Origin: Anagrus nilaparvatae
Taxonomy: Eukaryota > Arthropoda > Insecta > Hymenoptera > Mymaridae
Length of the DNA: 64,000 bases
Reading direction: 5' to 3'
NCBI GenBank assembly: GCA_022575985.1
Contig: JAKSXM010000137.1
Span: 26,430,001 to 26,494,000, forward strand
The notes below the pieces were generated by a model. That model had not been told where the DNA came from. It saw only the letters and a list, made by a program, of their open reading frames with translations, and did not search any database. Numbering within the stretch: the first letter of the stretch is position 1; every line of letters starts with the position of its first letter. Below, piece after piece: positions 758-64,000 of this stretch. Made by a program: the position numbers and the translations under genes.

Positions 758-3700
758 ATGAATTTTACATTTTTAAAATTTTTAATCGTAATACAATTAC
801 TGATTATAACATTCACTAAAGTATCCTGTTATGATCATTGTTCGTGGACTGGATGTCAAAAAAAAAGTTTGCAAAAACGTGGTTGTGCTATTTCAAATAA
901 AATTCAAGAAAATGTAAGGGATTGTGAGCATGGAAATGAATTTTATTGCTGCTCAAAATCTTTTAATTATGACTACTTTTGTAATACGGTGTCTTACGAT
1001 TTTAAAAGTCTTTATAGTAATAATAATAATAATGAAGATTGTTCAATGATAACTGAAAATTATGATTCTATTGATTACAAAATAATTAATAGAAACGATA
1101 AGACTGGTGACTGTTGGTGGTCAGGATGTGAAAAAAATAATCCAGCATTATGTAAAAGTTATAACAAAATTCAAAAGGATATTAAAAATTGCGTTGAGGG
1201 TAATGATTATTATTGTTGCTCAAAAGATATAAATTTTAATTATTCAAATATTTCTAAAATTTATAATAACAGTAATCAATTTGGAGATTGCTCTTGGTCA
1301 GAATGCCAAAAGACCAATTTAAAATTAGGTGGTTGCAATTTTTATAATAAAACTCAAAAAGATATTAGGATATGCCAGGATGGGCATGAATACTTATGCT
1401 GTTTAAAATTAGATAATAATAATGATAATTTTATGAAACCTGAAGATATTAACGATGAAGAAGAACTTATAGAATGCTGGTGGTCAAATTGTCAAAATAA
1501 AAATTTGACAGAACGTGGATGTGATATTTATAATAGAACTCAACTAGGCATCAGAAATTGTGAAACAGGTAATCAATATTTTTGTTGCCCTAAATTACCT
1601 ATTGAGAGTGATACTGATGATGATGGCATCATTAATACAGAAACTGAAAAAACAGAATGTTGGTGGTCTTCTTGTCAATATAGGAACTGGACAACAAGAG
1701 GATGTCCTTTTAATATGAAACAACTTGAAACTCGGCCGTGTCTAGATAATGAAGGCGATGTGTTTCATTGCTGTTTAGATGAAAATAATGAAATAATAGA
1801 TGATGATTCGGGATTCGAAAATTTTCCGATAATTGATTTACCTCCAGACTCTGCTGTAGATGATTCATTAATTGATTACGGGAAAATAAATTCATTCATC
1901 AATTATGCAAAGTATTTAATAATGAAAGGAAAAAATTTTACTTTGATTCCTGACAGATTACCGTGTTTATCCATAGATCCTGAAAAACAATTTATACTTC
2001 AAATAAAAGACGAAGGAGTTTACACATGCGATTTATGCCCTTATTTTCCACATAGGAGAATTGTCAATGCATTCTTGAACAATGTTCCTGTTGATGTAAA
2101 ATCTAATCTCTTACTTCCAGAATGCTATGGAAGTTGTTTTGACCGACCTGATTGCGTTGCTTTTAGTCATAATACTGAAGATTATTCATGTTATATCTAC
2201 AATAACACTAAGGGTAACTACGTTCCTGATTCTAATTGGCTTTCAGTATTAATGGCACAACCAGTGGGAATAATTAATAACTGGAGTTATACTCGTCACA
2301 CAGAAATCACTGGTGAACCTTTTGAAACTTCAAAAGAAGACATTTTTCAAAAATGTCTGTTGAAGTGTGATGAGAAAATTAATTGTAATTATTTATCATA
2401 TTCATTTAGAACATCAAATTGCTCGAGGTTTGATAGCTTTAAAAACGTCAATTACATTGACTTGAGTTACGGATCAGTTATGGCATCCAGAATACCACAA
2501 ATAGCAGTTGAAAATGATCCAAGCTCGAGATTTACTGAAGAAGGTGATGATTTGTCAGCTGGAGAAAAACTGGATTCGATTTCAAGCAATAACATATGCA
2601 CCTCATTAAAAAATGAAACACACTCTGCATTTTTTTCAGAAGACTGTTGTACGTCTGAAGCAATTGGATGCGACCCTATAACTGGTTGTAAAACTTGCTA
2701 CTATCCAGAAAAATCTGAAATGCAGTATAATTTAGTATTTTGTCCAGATAGCGAAATAACTATGTTAAACGAAGTCAAAGAATTAATAATATCTGAAATG
2801 AGTAAATGCTTAATAGAAGCATCTTGCATAGGTATCGGATACATATCAACAAAAAATGAAATTCGTCAACTTACATTTGAAACTATAGCCTTAGACGATT
2901 ATTCCACTACGTATTTACTAAGGTATCCTATAGACAATTCCGAAAATCATAAACTAATGATGGAGCATGACTTTTTATTTGGATATGATATTAGTCAAAT
3001 TTCTAGCGTCGCTGGCAGTTTTCAAGAAAAGAAAGAGAAAAAATTAAAAGATTGCTTGAAATTGTTCAAATCTAGTGGCAATTACATTATCATGTCCTAT
3101 TCAAACAAAACTTGTAAATTATCTTCAAAAGGAGTCGGATTTATTCATAAAGCTGGCAAATTCTTGACAATAACTAAAAAACCAAAAATCACATCTCCAC
3201 TAATAAACTATGTAAAAACGCCTGGTTTTGCGTTACCAGTTAATGAAGCCAAACAAAAATATGATCGATGTGAAAATGAATGTGAATTAGTATGTGCTAA
3301 AAAATGCAGTCAAGCGTTTGGTAAATGGTGTTCTCATTTTACCATAGAATATGAAAGTGAAAAAAATACATGCCTATTTTATGACTATCTTAATGAAACA
3401 GATGCAGCCAATGCTGAATTACAACAGAAGTTCAATGCGCAAATATTTACCAGACAAACCAGTTTTGATTTCACCTTGGATTCATTTAATAAATTAAATC
3501 CATTTCAAACGTTGGATGTTAATGATTGTTTTCAAACCAATAATCCAGAACAAACTCAAACATCGTTAACACTGATTAATTTTAACAGTAATAATAATGG
3601 AACAGGGATTTCATTAAGACAAAAGCGGGGGCTTTTTGATTTTTTAAAAAAAGCAATAACAGCAGTTGGAGAGTTTATAGCAGATACAGTGACGAGCACT

Positions 3701-6700
3701 GTAAATACTGTAGTTGATACAGCAAAAGGAATTGTTGATACTGTTAAAAATGTTATCAAGGGAGATTTTCAAGCTGCTAAAGATGCGTTTATGAACATCC
3801 CCATTGTAAATGATGTTAAAAATGCGGTTGATCTTGCAAAAGCTGTTGTTAGTGCTGATTGGGAAACTGTTAAAAATCGAGGAATTGCATTATTGCAATC
3901 GTCAGCATTAGATATAGCAACATCTTTTATTCCTTTCGGAGGTAAATTTATTGGCAAAGGATTAAAATACATTGGTAAACAATTAGGGAAAAGATTATCA
4001 AAGGTAAAGAGAGCCATAAAAAGAAAAATGAATAAAACAAATGGTAATAACAAAAATTTGAAAAATCAAAAATCAAAAAGTAAAAAGGACAAAGATATAG
4101 ATGATAGCAGGAGTCAATGCAAAAATCAAGCTCGCCCAAAAAGGGGAGTTGTAAAACCAAATAAAAATAAGCCAGGTAAATGTAATAAATCTGATAAGGA
4201 CAATTTTTGTCCAAAGCCAATAATTCAGCATGTTTTAGAAAATTCAATGCCTAGATGTAGGGGAAGAAATATAAATGCAGTTTGTGATTTCGAATGTCAA
4301 CCTGGTTACGATGAACCAGAGAAAACTGTTGAATGTAAAAGACCTACAAATAGACCGGCAGCTTGGACTCCAAGGCCAAACTGCCATTTGATTCACTGTT
4401 CAAACTCTCCATTCCCGTTAATTCCATTACGTACGCCGATTGTAAGTTCTTTCGGTGCATTGAATCTTGGAAATCATTTTACTGCTTATGTTGTTCTATT
4501 TGATAAAGAGAAAAAACTTCCAAAATGGTCAATTGCCTTACATCAGAGTAAACAATTTGAAAGTAAAAATTATAATGCGTTTAAAAAAATGAAAAGACAG
4601 GATGATTTTCAGCCGTTCCTATGTCCAGAATTAAATGGTTATCAAGGCAGAAAGGTTGATTACACAAACAGTGGCTGGGACAAAGGGCATTTAACACCAG
4701 CAAATGTAGCAAGATGGTCTACCAAGGCCACTATGCTTTCAAATTTATTTGTAAACGTAGCACCTCAAGATCCGTATACAAATCAACAACCATGGAAAAA
4801 TTTAGAACTACTCGTAGAAGAATTTAGTGATGAAACACGCAGCATTGTCGTAACTGGTCTTTGCGATTCCGATATTGGAGAAACGCCAAAAGGTCTAAAG
4901 ATACCATCTTGTTATTGGAAAATGATATGTTACAGGGATGAAAATTGGAAAGAACAAGTTGTTGGTTTTATTGCTCAAAATACACATCCTATTTCAGACG
5001 TAGAAAAAATGGAAAGAGCATATGAGGTATATACCCCAGTTAACCAAAAAGATATAAAGCCACTGTTCACTGGCGGAAGCCCGTGGCTTATTTCAAGTAC
5101 TGAAATAAATAAAGGACGACCAATAGCAGTAAGTTCTTTTTGGTCAAATACAGATAAAAGATCTATTTGGTATCCAATAAATCCTCTCGATTGTGAAAAT
5201 GCTCATACCTTATCTACCAAAGAAAAAAATAAATGGAAAATTTCATTATTAAAACTACAGTTAAAAAACTTAAAAACAGGTTCTGAAACAAAAAAAAAAG
5301 CGGCGAAAAGACCCGTCAAAGTATCTGGTAAAAAACGTCCACCAAAAAGACAAAGAAAAAATCCGCCTAAAAACAAAGGTAAGAGCAGAAGACATACAAC
5401 TACCAATACTTTAAAAAAAGGATACAATGAAATATCTAAATTAAGAAATCGAATTTTTCATCAACGTTTATCTGGTAGCGATGAAAAAGGCGATTTCAAA
5501 TCTGAAATAGATCTGAACTCTAAAGTGGATTCAATGAGTAACCAAACGTGCAATAAACGTATAGTTGGTTATTATACATCTTGGTTTGATAAAATAATTG
5601 ATCATTCTCAATTACAAAAACTTACGCACGTTATTTTTGCTTATTTAGAAGTAGATGAAGGTGGTTTTATAGATATAGGGAGTATAGAAAATACTGAAAA
5701 TAGTATTAAAGAAATAAATAAAGCCAATGAAAAATTGATTGATTTGATGAAAATGGCATCTTTACAATCACATCTTAAAGTTATGTTTGCGATAGGAGGC
5801 TTGGAAAACTCTGATTATTTTAGTTCAATAGCAGCAGACCCAGAAAAAAGAAGTACATTTATTGGTTCAATAATTAAAATGATTCAACGATATGGCTTTG
5901 ATGGGGTAGACTTAGATTGGAGATATCCTGAATCTGCGAGGGATAAAGAAAATTATGTTATTTTAATAAAAGAAATTAAAATTGCCTTTGATAGCTTGTC
6001 TGCTGAAACAAACAGAAACGAAAACTTTTTGTTGAGTTTTGTTGGCGCTACAGAAGAACGAATTCTTGAAACTGGGTTTGACATACCCAAATTATTCAAG
6101 TATGTAGATTTTGTTAATATTCTATCCTACGAATTTTTCGTTGCTTTAGTTAAAAAATGTGGTACGTATACGGGACCCCTGGCTCCTCTTCATTTTGGGA
6201 TGCCTGCTGCGATTACAGGAAAAGCCACTGTAGATTGGAGTCTGAAATATTATATTTGTAAAACTGGGCTACCTCAGAAAATCAACGTTGGTGTTCCATT
6301 TTACGGAAGGTATTGGCGTAATGTTGGTGATGCCATCGACAAAAATGATATGATGTGGAGAATGTTAAATCTAAATAAAAATTTGGATAGTGATTATCTT
6401 CCATATAATGAAATACCCGAATTCCTCAAGAATGAGAACTTACAAGAATATTTTCATGAACAGTGCCAAACCCCATATGCGTGGAATTCGAATACAAGTA
6501 CATTTTTAGGATATGAAAATGTAAAATCATTGGAATCTAAAGTAAAATATGCCGCAGAAAAAAATATCGGTGGCATTATGATATGGGCAATTGAATTCGA
6601 TGACGAAAGCTCGTCTTTACTAAATGTTGTTTCAAATTCACAATCGTGTAAAAAAATTATAGAATCAGAAATAGACTTTAAATGTTTGCCAATCGATAGT

Positions 6701-7351
6701 AGACGTTGGTGGGCTGCAGACGATGGAAATAAGGCAATGCTTTGCGGGAAATCAGCTCCACTATTCCAAGGATATTACCCCGTTTGTGACCCAGATGAGC
6801 CTAGTTATAATTGCTGTGGATCAGAAGGCTATTGTGGTACTGGGCCAAAATATTGTGACTGTCCTACTTGCAAAAATTATAAAGAGTACCCAAAAAAAAT
6901 TCTTGAAAAACCAATAAAACCAACAGTCCCTGTAACATGGTATTTTTCTAACGACCCAGTAGGGAAAAAAGGAAGATGTGGTAAAAACATACCTAAAATT
7001 AATGGTGTTATCCCAACATGTAATCCGGATGACGATAATGCCTATTGTTGTTCAAAAGATGGTTATTGTGGAAATACAGATTCTCATTGTAAATGCGATG
7101 GCTGTGTTAATTATAGAAACAATAAAAATCACGAGCATGAATGGTGGAATTTATCTGATAACAAAATAACAGTTCCAAATATTTTAAATAATGAAACAAG
7201 CCCTACTACTCTAAATAACGAAACATTACAAGTTACATTAAATAATCAGACAGATAAAAATATTGATGAAATATGTGACTTGTACACGGAAAATACTTTA
7301 GATTTAATTCTATGCATTTGGGGTAAAATTTTAAAAGTTTTGTCGAATTAA
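758..7351 (+). CDS. Large secreted mosaic protein: Cys/Trp repeats, apple-like, furin-flanked helices, sushi, DNA/RNA nuclease, GH18-like, two hevein-like modules
   Basis: Intact intronless frame of 2197 residues. Residues 1-24 are a signal peptide. Five Cys/Trp repeats (C-x-W-x2-C ... G-Y-x-CC) start at C28, C119, C178, C240 and C301. A Cys-rich, apple/PAN-like region covers about 400-880. RQKR|G (957/958) and RPKR|G (1129/1130) are furin-type sites enclosing an amphipathic, lysine-rich helical segment. A sushi-like module spans C1151-C1209. A DNA/RNA non-specific nuclease follows, with D1308-K-G-H1311 in place of the usual DRGH, plus N1333, N1342 and E1350. After a basic linker (1500-1560) comes a GH18 barrel (1600-1960) with FDGVDLDWRYP, where the catalytic Glu is R1722. 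Two hevein-like chitin-binding modules (C1996-C2038, C2074-C2116) and NNET/NNQT glycosylation repeats end the protein. The nuclease looks potentially active and the chitinase inactive, so GH18 plus hevein probably act as a chitin-binding anchor. Role unknown: immune effector, venom or cuticle/gut factor are all possible, and a toxin-like role is inference. Confidence 0.9.
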   Translation: MNFTFLKFLIVIQLLIITFTKVSCYDHCSWTGCQKKSLQKRGCAISNKIQENVRDCEHGNEFYCCSKSFNYDYFCNTVSYDFKSLYSNNNNNEDCSMITENYDSIDYKIINRNDKTGDCWWSGCEKNNPALCKSYNKIQKDIKNCVEGNDYYCCSKDINFNYSNISKIYNNSNQFGDCSWSECQKTNLKLGGCNFYNKTQKDIRICQDGHEYLCCLKLDNNNDNFMKPEDINDEEELIECWWSNCQNKNLTERGCDIYNRTQLGIRNCETGNQYFCCPKLPIESDTDDDGIINTETEKTECWWSSCQYRNWTTRGCPFNMKQLETRPCLDNEGDVFHCCLDENNEIIDDDSGFENFPIIDLPPDSAVDDSLIDYGKINSFINYAKYLIMKGKNFTLIPDRLPCLSIDPEKQFILQIKDEGVYTCDLCPYFPHRRIVNAFLNNVPVDVKSNLLLPECYGSCFDRPDCVAFSHNTEDYSCYIYNNTKGNYVPDSNWLSVLMAQPVGIINNWSYTRHTEITGEPFETSKEDIFQKCLLKCDEKINCNYLSYSFRTSNCSRFDSFKNVNYIDLSYGSVMASRIPQIAVENDPSSRFTEEGDDLSAGEKLDSISSNNICTSLKNETHSAFFSEDCCTSEAIGCDPITGCKTCYYPEKSEMQYNLVFCPDSEITMLNEVKELIISEMSKCLIEASCIGIGYISTKNEIRQLTFETIALDDYSTTYLLRYPIDNSENHKLMMEHDFLFGYDISQISSVAGSFQEKKEKKLKDCLKLFKSSGNYIIMSYSNKTCKLSSKGVGFIHKAGKFLTITKKPKITSPLINYVKTPGFALPVNEAKQKYDRCENECELVCAKKCSQAFGKWCSHFTIEYESEKNTCLFYDYLNETDAANAELQQKFNAQIFTRQTSFDFTLDSFNKLNPFQTLDVNDCFQTNNPEQTQTSLTLINFNSNNNGTGISLRQKRGLFDFLKKAITAVGEFIADTVTSTVNTVVDTAKGIVDTVKNVIKGDFQAAKDAFMNIPIVNDVKNAVDLAKAVVSADWETVKNRGIALLQSSALDIATSFIPFGGKFIGKGLKYIGKQLGKRLSKVKRAIKRKMNKTNGNNKNLKNQKSKSKKDKDIDDSRSQCKNQARPKRGVVKPNKNKPGKCNKSDKDNFCPKPIIQHVLENSMPRCRGRNINAVCDFECQPGYDEPEKTVECKRPTNRPAAWTPRPNCHLIHCSNSPFPLIPLRTPIVSSFGALNLGNHFTAYVVLFDKEKKLPKWSIALHQSKQFESKNYNAFKKMKRQDDFQPFLCPELNGYQGRKVDYTNSGWDKGHLTPANVARWSTKATMLSNLFVNVAPQDPYTNQQPWKNLELLVEEFSDETRSIVVTGLCDSDIGETPKGLKIPSCYWKMICYRDENWKEQVVGFIAQNTHPISDVEKMERAYEVYTPVNQKDIKPLFTGGSPWLISSTEINKGRPIAVSSFWSNTDKRSIWYPINPLDCENAHTLSTKEKNKWKISLLKLQLKNLKTGSETKKKAAKRPVKVSGKKRPPKRQRKNPPKNKGKSRRHTTTNTLKKGYNEISKLRNRIFHQRLSGSDEKGDFKSEIDLNSKVDSMSNQTCNKRIVGYYTSWFDKIIDHSQLQKLTHVIFAYLEVDEGGFIDIGSIENTENSIKEINKANEKLIDLMKMASLQSHLKVMFAIGGLENSDYFSSIAADPEKRSTFIGSIIKMIQRYGFDGVDLDWRYPESARDKENYVILIKEIKIAFDSLSAETNRNENFLLSFVGATEERILETGFDIPKLFKYVDFVNILSYEFFVALVKKCGTYTGPLAPLHFGMPAAITGKATVDWSLKYYICKTGLPQKINVGVPFYGRYWRNVGDAIDKNDMMWRMLNLNKNLDSDYLPYNEIPEFLKNENLQEYFHEQCQTPYAWNSNTSTFLGYENVKSLESKVKYAAEKNIGGIMIWAIEFDDESSSLLNVVSNSQSCKKIIESEIDFKCLPIDSRRWWAADDGNKAMLCGKSAPLFQGYYPVCDPDEPSYNCCGSEGYCGTGPKYCDCPTCKNYKEYPKKILEKPIKPTVPVTWYFSNDPVGKKGRCGKNIPKINGVIPTCNPDDDNAYCCSKDGYCGNTDSHCKCDGCVNYRNNKNHEHEWWNLSDNKITVPNILNNETSPTTLNNETLQVTLNNQTDKNIDEICDLYTENTLDLILCIWGKILKVLSN

Positions 7352-7740: not shown

Positions 7741-9225
7741 GGTTCCTCGTAGAGGAACCATTGTGATAGGTCAAAATTTTTTTTTTGATTTTTTGGTATA
7801 TAAGCACGTTTTGAGACCTCAGGAAGCTAAAAAACCGGTTTTTAAAAAAAGTCTGTATGTGTGTATGTGTGTGTGTACGTACGTACGTATGTAATCGCTG
7901 ATATTTCACAAACATTATGGAATTAAGACCTAATTTTTTTTTCAAAAATTTTTTCACCAAAAAAGCTCGAGGTACTTTTATTTTTTTTTTAATTTGGATG
8001 TAATACCTCATTTATTTCCATGAAAGTACTTATATTTGAAAGTATGGTTTTCACATGATATCTCGAATCGGATACTTAATTTTCTGAAAATTTTTTTCCT
8101 AAAATTTTTTTCACAAAAAAATATAAGAAATACCAATCTTTTTTTTCTTTTTGGACGTAGTACCTAATTTATTTCCATGGAAGTACTAGTTTAAGAAATA
8201 TCGTTTATTGTAATTTTTTGGACCTAATACTTAATTTTTTTTTCATTTTTTTGTCAAAATTTTTGTCGCCAAAAAATACAAAAACGCCAAAATTTTTTTT
8301 ATTTTAGGACGTAATACTTAATTTTTTCCTATGAAAGTACGAATATCTAGAATTATCGTTTGTAACGGATTTCTCCATCAGATACATAATTTTTCGAAAT
8401 TTTTTTTTAAAAATTTTTTACATAAAATAATTAAAAAAATACCATAATTTTTTTTCTTTTTGGACGTAGTACCTCATTTTTTCCCATGAAAGTACTGATA
8501 TCTAGTTTTTACTCGATATCTCGAATCTTATAATTTATTTATAGAAAATTTTTTTCTCAAAATTTTTTTCACCAAAAAATACAAAAAATACCAATTTTTT
8601 TTTTCTTTATGGACGCAGTTCTTAATTTATTTCTGTGGAAGTACTAGTTTTAGAAATATCATTTATCGAAATTTTTTGGACCTGATACTTAATTTTTTCA
8701 AAATTTTTTTCTCAAAATTTTTGTCGCCAAAAAATACAAAAACCGCCAAAATTTTTTTTATTTTAGGACGTAATACTTAATTTTTTCCTATGAAAGTACG
8801 AATATTTAGAATTATCGTTTGTAAAGGATTTCTCCATCTGATACATAATTTTGCGAAATTTTTTTTTTTTTAAATTTTTTACATAAAATAATTAAAAAAA
8901 TAGCATAATTTTTTTTCTTTTTGGACGTATACCTCATTTTTTTCCATGAAAGTACTAATATGTAGAATTATCTTTTTAACTGGATATAAACAATCTGATA
9001 CCTAATTTTTTTTCAAAATTTTCTTTTAAAATTTTTCACATAAAAAAGTTAAAAAAATATCTTTTTATTGATGTTTGAAAATTTTTTGGGTATCAGGAGA
9101 AAGTTTATCCACTTTCTTTATTAAATTTAGAATATTTGGCACAATTATTCTAATATTTTAATTTTTTATTAGGTAAAATAGAATATTGACAACATTTTGT
9201 TATTGCTAATGAGGAACCATAGTGC
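7741..9225. repeat. Tandem array (about 154-bp unit, about 459-bp higher-order unit) inside a repeat element
   Basis: The block opens with a small hairpin (7741-7759, GGTTCCTC gta GAGGAACC) and a GT/GTAC microsatellite (7855-7890). Seven copies of a unit marked by 'gacgtaatac(c/t)t..att..ttcc(a/t)tg(a/g)aagtac' follow at about 7990, 8155, 8306, 8461, 8611, 8765 and 8922. Every third unit is most alike (8155/8611, 8306/8765, 8461/8922), so the array grew as a three-unit block. GAGGAACCAT-(t/a)-GTG occurs in the same orientation at both ends (7752 and 9211). The open frames here are artefacts of the repeat. Confidence 0.8.
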
Positions 9226-9423: not shown

Positions 9424-11527
<2,104 letters not shown>

Positions 11528-18619: not shown

Positions 18620-19920
<1,301 letters not shown>

Positions 19921-21004
19921 GATTGCTTAATAACCTTTAAATAGAAAAAAATTTTTACTATCTTTGATAAATAAAATTATTTTTTAATCTGTACAAAATA
20001 GAGTAATAAAATATGAAATTTTAGCTTTACAAAGTTTAAAAAAATTGAAACTACAATCATGCAGAAGTTATGTATTTAAACAATTATCCTGCTTTATGTT
20101 TATCAGAGTAATAATTATTAAATTATTTTATTATAATGACTATATATCACATGACACATCTCACTTGCATCAATAAAATATAAAAACACAATATTATAAT
20201 TTATTCATCAAGTTTTTGTTTAAATTTATATAAAAAAAATGGCATAAAAATAGTATATATTTATTACTGTTAAAACCAATTATCGTGTTACGAATTACGC
20301 ATCATTTACTTTGGCAAAAGTTTTGAGGAATAATAAAATCGTTTTTACTGCGCAGTGAATTTAAATCCTTTGTGCGTTATGTTTTTTATTATTCACAATT
20401 ATTGTAATACATATAAAGGTTATTATTGACCTCATTTTTTTTTTTTAAACAAAGAGATTGTTTTTTATACTAAAAAATTACTGTTAATTAAATATAAGCC
20501 CTATAGTTATTGGCAATATATAGACTGAATCACTAAAATAAATAATGAAATTGCGTCATCTTTTATTGTGAATAATAAAAATAACAAACTCCGAAATTCA
20601 AATTTGATTAATCAATTTTTTTTTACTGTTATTAACAGTATGTTAATGGGTATTGTTTTAATTTTATTTTATTACTAACCTGAATAAACTAATGTTGTTA
20701 ATACTCGATGTGGCAGTAATTTGAAAATTATTTAATCCCAAAACACAAAAACTATTCTAAGCTAAGTTTGCTCCGACAAATTACCATCAATGCCAATCTC
20801 TCCACCAGCTCTCCACTTTATACAATGATGGACTTGTCGTTTCTCTTTCTACATTTATAACAAAATAATAAACATTTGAATAGAAGGAAAGTGGAGGCGG
20901 AATCACGTGACAAGAAGTATATGTTTTTTTTTCTGCATCTGTTATTTTTGAAATATTTCGCGCGTATAAAAATCTCTGAAAATTACCCAAAAAGGGTAAT
21001 TCTT
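19921..21004. other. Upstream region of cathepsin L paralogue B
   Basis: AT-rich. A short imperfect inverted repeat pairs 'tttttattattcacaatt' (near 20385) with 'attgtgaataataaaaat' (near 20565). Bases 20770-21000 are less AT-rich with an open frame on the - strand that I do not recognise. It ends where a foldback element begins. Confidence 0.4.
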
Positions 21005-62830: not shown

Positions 62831-64000
62831 TTACATGGACTCACCTCCTAAGAGGTCACCAGGTAAATAAGAATTTAATGAACTTGGTGTTGCTCTTTGT
62901 TGATCGGCGCTATCAAGTCCGGTGCTACTCCATAATGAATTTCCTGTTGGTGCTGCACCCCATAATTGACTTGGGCCAGAAGGCCATGCATCACTTGAGC
63001 TTGGTGGTCCAACTTGAGATGTATTCGATTTCTGACGTGGAGCACCCCAACTTCCACCAACTCCAACATTAGGTTGTTGTTGAGGTGTTTGACCAGCTCC
63101 TCCACTTAATTGTTGAAGAAGTGAATGCACATCATTATCAGCTGGTGATTCAGCAAAAATAGTCGTGTTTCCAAGAACACAATTATTTAAAGCACCTTGA
63201 GCCTGAAAAACGAAAATATTTTACTTTTTATTAATTTTATAAATTTAAAAAAATGTTGAAATTTTTGCTGTTTATTTGTACTATATATATTTGAGTTTTT
63301 TTGCTTGATTTTACAAAAAAAAAAAAAATTTAGTTTGCAACATGAATTTTACTCAGGGATATGATAGATTTATTATTAAATAATTATTCTATACAATACC
63401 TTAATTGCTTCTTCTCTTGAAGAGTATTTTGCTAGGGCAATTCCATGATTGAGGTAAAGTCTGAAGTCTTGAATGGGTCCATGCTGCATGCATAATGTTT
63501 TTAAAGTTGACCCATCTATTTGAGGTGTTAAGTTACGTAGCAGCAACCAAGTTGAACTTGAAATCCATCCAGCATTAGGGGTATTTGATGGATTGGATTG
63601 CAATCCCCATGTATTTGATCTTCCACCAAGTCCTGTCCACCCATTAGTAACACTTGATGTATTGCCAGCTGCATTTTTTGAACCAAGCCCTGGTGGTGGT
63701 CCTCTGCCTGACTTATTCATAGGTGCACCCCAAAGTTCTGATGTTACTGCAGTAGGAGGTGGGGCTGAGTCTCCCCATGTATTTTTAGCGCTAATAAAAA
63801 TAATATATAATATAATGATATAATGTTTATAGTATAATGTTCAATGAAAATTATTTCTAATGTGTTAGTTCTTTACATCATCAAAAAAAAAAAAAAAAAA
63901 GGTTTAAGACTATGATTAAATTTGGTAGTATATTAGTATATAAAATGTATATCTGCTAACCTTGCAAATGCACTGTGGTTTGTTACTGGAGGGTTAAAAC
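62831..64000 (-). CDS. gw: Gawky/GW182 (TNRC6 family), C-terminal part
   Basis: Scaffold of miRNA silencing. It binds Argonaute through its N-terminal GW repeats (outside the window) and recruits deadenylases through its C-terminal silencing domain. Three exons are visible: 63961-64000 (cut by the window end), 63400-63790 and 62831-63202, joined at consensus GT-AG sites with consistent phase, about 266 residues in all. Trp motifs (NTWGDS, ELWGAP, NGWTGLGG, NTWGLQ) precede an RRM that starts STWLLLRNLTPQIDGSTL and ends NCVLGNTTIFAESPAD, split by the 197-base intron. The tail SQLWGAAPTG...SLWSSTGLD and the end LPGDLLGGESM are strongly conserved in insect Gawky. The tail's tandem Trp residues are those that contact CCR4-NOT in the family. 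Intact as far as seen. Confidence 0.95.

Follow-up and report, generated by a model that had tools for sequence, protein, structure and literature searches.

A killer-toxin-like nuclease and GH18 gene in the parasitoid wasp Anagrus nilaparvatae, with signs of acquisition from a hemipteran

Background

A chitin-binding part, a GH18 domain and a nuclease part are combined, with Kex2 sites, in the yeast virus-like-element (VLE) killer toxins zymocin, PaT and pDH5A ORF2. pDH5A ORF2 of Debaryomyces hansenii holds all three parts in one predicted extracellular protein (PMC8472843). The Anagrus nilaparvatae gene described here is similar in layout (chitinase/chitin-binding, nuclease and Kex2/furin sites), and the killer-toxin-like logic that a sequence-only reading had seen in it is supported; its furin sites are predicted and its GH18 lacks the catalytic Glu. 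The wasp payload is an EndoG/Serratia-type nuclease, whereas the VLE toxins carry either a NucA/NucB fragment or a subunit that cleaves tRNA. The wasp protein, unlike the VLE toxins, also has apple/PAN and Cys/Trp modules, and the gene is an animal nuclear one in a 26.7-Mb contig of an insect genome, not a cytoplasmic linear plasmid gene as in the zymocin type.

The EndoG/EXOG/Serratia/NucA nucleases (PF01223) share the fold and the His/Asn/Glu set of the wasp nuclease, which differs in lying inside a multidomain, probably secreted precursor. Nematode proteins with LysM, Self-incomp_S1 and GH18 domains (Caenorhabditis, Plectus; 10 matches) have a homologous GH18. The C. elegans protein also has a hevein-like module, as in the wasp family, with LysM and S1 placed ahead of GH18. 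A nuclease domain was listed in none of the 10 nematode proteins, LysM in all 10 and S1 in nine. Insect chitinase-like proteins/IDGFs, including venom ones, resemble the wasp copy studied here in their GH18 without the catalytic glutamate, with tandem expansion in a wasp (PMC8314478).

Results

In the window (the 64,000-nt stretch of A. nilaparvatae DNA that was analysed), the only ORF of at least 250 aa runs from 758 to 7351 on the plus strand. Its 2197 codons contain no internal stop and the longest frame in shuffled versions of the CDS (n=200) was 127 aa, confirming the single-frame 2197-residue protein proposed earlier. Rfam and tRNA scans of the whole window gave no match. The N-terminal part consists of a signal peptide, five Cys/Trp modules, an apple/PAN array, a furin site and an amphipathic helical segment; a second furin site, a CCP-like module, the nuclease, GH18 and two hevein modules follow. 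The features are:

758..829, plus strand: signal peptide, residues 1-24 (hydrophobic N terminus of the translation, by inspection)
839..1774, plus strand: five Cys/Trp modules, C[SW]W..C[QE]...CC, putatively glycan-binding (pattern)
1868..3529, plus strand: apple/PAN domain array (PAN_1 in relatives; Foldseek of model)
3617..3628, plus strand: furin-type site RQKR, residues 954-957 (R-x-[KR]-R motif; conservation)
3629..4057, plus strand: amphipathic, then helical segment (GLFDFLKKAITAVGEF...), putatively membrane-active or for translocation (conservation; low-confidence model; hydrophobic moment)
4133..4144, plus strand: second furin-type site RPKR, residues 1126-1129 (motif; conservation)
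4208..4384, plus strand: CCP/sushi-like module (Cys pattern)
4388..5197, plus strand: DNA/RNA non-specific nuclease, EndoG/EXOG/Serratia fold (Pfam; PDB by sequence; Foldseek)
4679..4690, plus strand: nuclease motif DKGH with general-base His 1311 (conservation)
5549..6637, plus strand: GH18 barrel without catalytic Glu (Pfam; alignment)
5900..5923, plus strand: DGVDLDWR, the lost GH18 motif, catalytic Glu to Arg (alignment of 25)
6743..6865, plus strand: hevein-like module 1 (Pfam match below cut-off; alignment)
6977..7105, plus strand: hevein-like module 2 (alignment; comparison with paralogs B and C)
7932..9069, plus strand: tandem repeat, wasp genome-wide, directly 3' of the gene (genome search)

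Pfam placed both enzymes in this one protein, as had been claimed: Endonuclease_NS (PF01223) at residues 1242-1408 (71.2 bits, cut-off 23) and the GH18 barrel at residues 1601-1948 (290 bits). The proposed pair of hevein-like modules was recovered in the alignment, with Chitin_bind_1 at 19.9 bits lying under the Pfam cut-off of 27.8 (it is below cut-off in paralogs B and C too). The proposed sushi-like module has the Cys pattern as its one basis, the Pfam scan making no call.

The Cys/Trp repeats and internal furin sites of the earlier reading were both found. Pattern search located the repeats at residues 28-65, 119-154, 178-215, 240-277 and 301-339; the same count gave 1-5 modules in 12 of 25 family members and none in 13, several of which are N-terminally partial. 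PAN_1 scored 16.2 bits in the window copy, under the Pfam cut-off of 21.4, and passed it in both B and C, the wasp paralogs, as well as in four scanned relatives. Foldseek with a model of residues 231-950 (pLDDT 55.5, pTM 0.31) matched the apple arrays of prekallikrein and factor XI at E 7e-13 but TM 0.11. Two R-x-[KR]-R sites (954 and 1126) were observed against 0.26 expected from composition shuffles. The first is present as R-x-[KR]-R in 23 of the 25 members, including the window copy, and absent from P0021 and P0029; in a 14-row alignment R954 and R957 are invariant and R1126 of the second site nearly so. The helical segment after RQKR is conserved in the alignment. Its predicted helices have low confidence (pLDDT about 30-46), and the hydrophobic moment of the amphipathic segment is 0.50, above the protein-wide 95th percentile (0.47; mean 0.22). 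A known pore fold was rejected as an assignment for this segment, the model being too uncertain.

The nuclease and GH18 domains are paired in 22 database proteins, so the gene is not unique to Anagrus. Named carriers are a leafhopper, an adelgid, psyllids, spider mites, a springtail, a fungus gnat and bdelloid rotifers; the named matches include no hymenopteran and no planthopper, the closest relative being that of the leafhopper. The planthopper is the host of A. nilaparvatae, which parasitises its eggs (PMC9331105). One alignment-based homolog query matched only Macrosteles, probably because its query words came from the variable first 500 residues, and was not counted as absence. The window copy has both enzymes, the apple array and the first furin-type site of this apple-nuclease-GH18-hevein family. 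Judged from sequence, the nuclease and GH18 protein is a conserved animal family with a predicted design like that of yeast killer toxins. The claim that no standard insect gene has this layout thus fails as to occurrence, given the 22 proteins, and stands in that no published characterisation was found. A literature search lying mostly outside subscription journals returned no title or abstract start pointing to the architecture in arthropods, and the accessible part of a paper on fungal challenge in bdelloids (PMC11258130) does not mention the family gene.

Three copies in the wasp genome are open (A, which is the window copy, B and C), and three or more are broken. The open frames are all intronless, and A and B are sisters on the same contig (C234). 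Both enzyme domains, with the GH18 catalytic Glu, are present in B and C. Recurrence of the enzyme pair in other species and in these two further open copies excludes an assembly join of separate genes.

Foldseek of the nuclease gave EndoG/EXOG/Serratia matches (best E 6e-10). His1311, Asn1333, Asn1342 and Glu1350 are kept in 25/25 members; the Arg of the classical DRGH motif is Lys in the window copy, a position with R in 14, K in six, H in three and Q in two members (n=25). Only 1/27 invariant nuclease sites was changed in the window copy in one comparison and 0/21 in another. The nuclease part looks intact.

The chitin side had been taken as functional, and the state of the GH18 active site had gone unremarked. 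In the window copy, however, that site is destroyed: the catalytic DxxDxDxE has become DxxDxDxR, and this is the sole loss of the Glu among 25 aligned sequences. Where B and C have a third hevein module, the window copy has an unrelated tail. Otherwise invariant GH18 sites were changed at 39/135 positions in the window copy; the 13 relatives each had 0-5 changes at 100-105 such sites. In relative rate comparisons against Macrosteles, GH18 was faster with 10/10 outgroups and the nuclease with 1/10. Unique changes in A and B were 102:9 for GH18, 19:0 for hevein-1 and 44:22 for the nuclease; since the nuclease too is faster in A (p 0.009), the whole copy appears somewhat accelerated. Pairwise dN/dS was 0.12-0.30 in each of seven segments (A-B and A-C), values for which dS is near saturation and both branches are averaged. 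With its frame open, this dN/dS and the nuclease residues kept, the window copy looks repurposed. As B and C keep the glutamate, its loss in A is independent of that in the IDGFs, which are not known to have nuclease, apple, furin or hevein parts.

In the family tree, copies A, B and C group together (100/100) and are joined by Macrosteles (97/95) within a clade of Hemiptera, mites and Anagrus (99/100). Leaving out copy A and P0029 lowers the support for Macrosteles plus Anagrus to 91/91. The N-terminal half gave this grouping at 100/100. Hemiptera plus mites excluding Anagrus was rejected by the AU test (p 0.0009; 0.003 after removing copy A and P0029; 0.0148 on the N-terminal half), as was Anagrus plus Bradysia (p 0.0002); mites outside Hemiptera plus Anagrus was not (p 0.106). 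The GH18 and hevein tree (14 rows) placed the window copy, which was flagged as a long branch, apart from Macrosteles. The position of the wasp copies, nested next to the gene of the leafhopper, together with the rejection of Hemiptera plus mites without Anagrus, points to transfer from a hemipteran into the wasp lineage, and the suggestion of an acquired gene gains support (AU p 0.0009-0.015). Both enzymes were found in none of the fetched stretches of 80 viral loci kept (of 94) or 50 prokaryote loci; the nuclease was present in 80 viral loci and one prokaryote locus, GH18 in 49 prokaryote loci. The fetched loci thus gave no bacterial or viral source for the gene as a whole.

Discussion

We consider it probable, if some way from certain, that a gene for a killer-toxin-like secreted polyprotein was acquired horizontally and that the window gene is an altered, wasp-specific copy of it. 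Since the wasp is a parasitoid of hemipteran eggs, host DNA could be present in its assembly. Such contamination, or a mis-join, is hardly credible, however: the copies are spread over four contigs, each 13-74 Mb long, the paralogs of the wasp make up a clade by themselves, and the repeat directly 3' of the gene is found at 39 other places in the genome with 95-98% identity, among 40 scored of 3,550 candidates. Members in a springtail, mites, Hemiptera, a fly and rotifers would fit an ancient arthropod or animal gene with many losses, inherited vertically in the wasp and lost from most insects, and resolution is poor in the deep part of the tree; we regard this as quite unlikely, because each half of the protein, taken separately, nests Anagrus with the leafhopper and both constrained groupings that part them were rejected. 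There is a minor but real chance that an unsampled third party (virus, mobile element or other arthropod) gave the gene to wasp, leafhopper and mites, as the mites also lie within the Hemiptera clade and intronless frames suit a mobile source, although no fetched viral or prokaryote locus encodes both enzymes.

It is also unlikely that the window copy is merely decaying as constraint relaxes, with a frame that is open by chance. Faster change is seen in GH18, hevein-1, the CCP module and the second basic linker, the third hevein module is lost and three other wasp copies are broken, all as decay would have it. Against this stand 2197 codons without a stop, the low dN/dS per segment and the nearly unchanged nuclease sites; in the broken copies the pattern is reversed, with stops present yet DGVDIDWEYP intact in the pieces.

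Under the acquisition reading, an auchenorrhynchan-like hemipteran would have passed the gene to an Anagrus ancestor, with duplication afterwards. The precursor would be secreted, with a furin-type protease cleaving it at RQKR|GLFD and RPKR|G. Its Cys/Trp, apple and hevein modules may attach to glycans of a target surface, the amphipathic/helical segment, once freed, may insert into or cross the membrane, and the metal-dependent nuclease would be the payload. Family members that retain the GH18 motif would use the chitinase to breach a chitinous wall. The window copy would have abandoned chitinolysis, leaving GH18 at most a scaffold or lectin, and the result may be a glycan-targeted nuclease, serving antimicrobial defence or acting on the host egg.

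New here are the wasp acquisition from a hemipteran to which the trees point, the set of wasp copies and the Glu loss confined to the window copy. A bolder version we put forward tentatively: a hemipteran of the parasitoid's host group would have been the source of its killer-toxin-like chitinase-nuclease gene, which the wasp multiplied; one copy would have dropped chitinase catalysis but kept the nuclease, giving a glycan-targeted nuclease used where wasp and host meet. On a wider scale, sap-sucking arthropods, springtails and rotifers would have in common a class of modular animal killer toxins, so far undescribed, with a swappable payload (a nuclease in arthropods and rotifers, an S1 domain in nematodes).

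The family is now named for study in spider mites, psyllids, leafhoppers and rotifers. The wasp paralogs, two with the chitinase motif and one without, provide a natural comparison for asking whether the nuclease alone carries the selected function. If the proposed reading is true, the family would be an animal counterpart of the fungal killer toxins that moves between animals, and the wasp gene a case of insect-to-insect transfer along a host-parasitoid line.

Architecture of copy A and its surroundings

The gene under study (copy A, window positions 758–7351, plus strand, 2197 residues) was the only frame of at least 250 codons in the window in an ORF scan. The encoded protein starts with a signal peptide (recognised by eye), five Cys/Trp modules and an apple/PAN array, after which comes a first furin-type site (RQKR, residues 954–957). 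This site is followed by a segment of amphipathic and helical character and by a linker that is rich in Lys and holds a second furin-type site (RPKR, 1126–1129). Next are a CCP-like module and the DNA/RNA non-specific nuclease, then a second basic linker leading to the GH18 barrel, and finally two hevein-like modules with an Asn-rich tail behind them. The model of residues 231–950 matched prekallikrein and factor XI in their apple arrays, despite its low overall confidence (pLDDT 55.5, pTM 0.31).

The G + C content of copy A was 38%, 36% and 22% at codon positions 1, 2 and 3, respectively, the low third-position value being as expected for coding sequence in an AT-rich genome. The window has a G + C content of 24.8%, and 27.52% is reported for the published assembly of Anagrus nilaparvatae, a mymarid that parasitises the eggs of rice planthoppers (PMC9331105). 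Further features of the window were:

7106–7351, Asn/Thr-rich tail of copy A, standing where the open paralogs B and C have a third hevein module
7932–9069, tandem repeat adjoining copy A (TRF periods 155, 304 and 458), present genome-wide
9427–11122 and 18623–19926, minus strand, two intron-containing genes, presumably cathepsin L-like, whose exons were delimited by eye
about 62831–63840, minus strand, GW-repeat-rich exons, which we take to resemble gawky/GW182

A conserved family

Judged by its homologs, copy A belongs to a conserved family. A whole-length search returned 19 proteins, 13 of which contained both enzyme domains, including those of the hemipterans Macrosteles quadrilineatus (a leafhopper), Adelges cooleyi, Cacopsylla (2) and Diaphorina citri, and those of Panonychus citri, Tetranychus urticae, Allacma fusca (2) and Adineta (2). 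A search seeded with wasp paralog C gave 32 proteins (22 with both domains), adding among others the fungus gnat Bradysia coprophila, Rotaria (2) and Adineta steineri (2). Hymenoptera were absent from the 13 and 26 named rows of these searches, respectively, an absence that applies to these lists, as such searches pick up only relatives of similar length sharing exact words. No planthopper was among the named matches of either search, and none of the titles and abstract starts listed in literature searches indicated this architecture in arthropods.

The N-terminal parts are variable; a count found Cys/Trp modules in 12 of the 25 aligned members, and Adineta members carry other carbohydrate-binding modules at this end. 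Ten nematode matches (Caenorhabditis and Plectus; P0015, P0030–P0038) have the GH18 part in common, together with LysM (10/10) and Self-incomp_S1 (9/10), and a nuclease domain was listed for none of them (full Pfam scan for the C. elegans protein). The presence of S1 versus nuclease beside the same GH18 domain may possibly reflect a payload swap.

The nuclease of copy A matched EXOG, EndoG, NucA and Serratia nuclease both in sequence and in fold. His1311, Asn1333, Asn1342 and Glu1350 were conserved in all 25 aligned members; the Arg position of the DRGH motif is Lys in copy A and varies in the family (R 14, K 6, H 3 and Q 2 of 25). R954 and R957 of the first furin-type site were unchanged throughout the 14-row alignment, and the site was found in 23 of the 25 members (missing from P0021 and P0029). 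Over the 18 residues after this site the hydrophobic moment was 0.34–0.75 in the 23 members passing the pattern filter, and 0.50 in copy A (chain mean 0.22, 95th percentile 0.47). This amphipathic start may resemble short amphibian antimicrobial peptides. In the model of residues 951–1490 the helical part had a pLDDT below 50 almost everywhere, so the putative role of the segment rests on the conserved first site and the amphipathic start behind it.

Copies in the wasp genome

Copy B (2144 codons counted from Met) is open and lies 17 kb upstream of copy A on the same contig (C234), and copy C (1970 codons) is open on contig C161. The copies on C62 and C196, 93% (over 7.1 kb) and 90% (over 6.4 kb) alike to B, respectively, contain stops, as does a truncated copy further upstream on C234. 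DGVDIDWEYP was intact in the broken copies wherever that piece was found.

Stretches related to the tandem repeat at 7932–9069 were observed near the gene copies on C62 and C234; this repeat may have helped gene duplication. Four loci on C196 (L147–L150, 26.125–26.20 Mb) hold additional stretches of Cys/Trp modules in tandem as well as isolated fragments of the module, which suggests module shuffling.

Loss of the chitinase glutamate in copy A

Of the 25 aligned proteins, 24 have kept the catalytic Glu of DxxDxDxE; copy A is the one exception, with Arg in its place. In one rotifer row the first Asp of the motif is Asn. In addition, the VTGGA..EG segment after this motif is shortened in copy A, and W1682, W1768, W1797, W1801 and D1792 are altered. 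At sites invariant in the other rows of the 14-row alignment, copy A was changed at 39/135 in GH18 and 1/27 in the nuclease (every other member: 0–5 of 100–105 in GH18). For the four rows tested in the 25-row alignment, GH18 changes were 24/86 in A and 0/65 in each of B, C and Macrosteles, and nuclease changes 0/21 in each.

Taking paralog C as the outgroup, we counted the changes unique to A and to B (A:B): 102:9 for GH18 (p = 4e-21), 19:0 for hevein-1, 37:5 for the second linker, 19:4 for the CCP module, 79:50 for the apple region (p = 0.013), 25:10 for the Cys/Trp part (p = 0.017), 11:2 for hevein-2 (p = 0.022) and 44:22 for the nuclease (p = 0.009); the helical segment (27:16) and first linker (9:5) did not differ significantly. 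Copy A is thus faster almost throughout, but the bias exceeds that of the nuclease in GH18 (Fisher p = 6e-5), in hevein-1 (p = 0.002) and in the second linker (p = 0.013). Pairwise dN/dS was 0.12–0.30 for pairs containing A and 0.04–0.23 for B–C, with dS near saturation. On these results the chitinase Glu was lost in copy A, with the frame and nuclease remaining constrained. Wasps are already known to have GH18 proteins that lack the glutamate, the IDGFs, some of them expressed in venom (PMC8314478), so losing catalysis as such has precedents; new is its occurrence inside this polyprotein, and in a single copy among several sisters.

Phylogeny and probable transfer

In the main tree (25 rows, CCP-to-hevein part) the wasp copies formed one clade (100/100), with Macrosteles as its sister (97/95), within a larger group that unites Anagrus with Hemiptera and mites (99/100). 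Constraining Hemiptera plus mites without Anagrus was 48 log units worse (p-AU 0.0009), and Hemiptera alone 43 (p = 0.0011). Without copy A and P0029, the longest branch, the former constraint had p = 0.003, Macrosteles plus Anagrus kept 91/91, and grouping Anagrus with the fly Bradysia was rejected (p = 0.0002). The N-terminal half (21 rows) gave Macrosteles plus Anagrus 100/100 (Hemiptera plus mites without Anagrus, p = 0.0148), the flagged long branches lying outside this clade. In the 14-row trees copy A joined Macrosteles at 100/100 over residues 380–2118 and 98/96 for CCP plus nuclease; the GH18 plus hevein tree lacked this group, and copy A was flagged there as a long branch.

Contamination of the wasp assembly is unlikely, since the gene copies lie on four large contigs and the repeat adjoining copy A occurs at 39 other genome places with 95–98% identity (among 40 scored). 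The simplest direction of transfer would be from a hemipteran to the wasp; supply of the gene by a third source common to both is less likely. The spider-mite members (Tetranychus, P0008; Panonychus, P0006) grouped with Hemiptera and not with the springtail. A second transfer may possibly account for this, and placing the mites outside Hemiptera plus Anagrus was not rejected in the 25-row tree (p = 0.106).

Proposed function

The Debaryomyces hansenii element pDH5A is described as having chitin-binding, GH18 and DNase-fragment parts in one ORF with KEX2 motifs (PMC8472843). Copy A has a similar layout, its GH18 lacking the catalytic Glu. By analogy with yeast killer toxins, the best reading is that the copy A product would be a secreted precursor, processed by furin, and would act as a glycan-targeted nuclease carrying a membrane-active segment.
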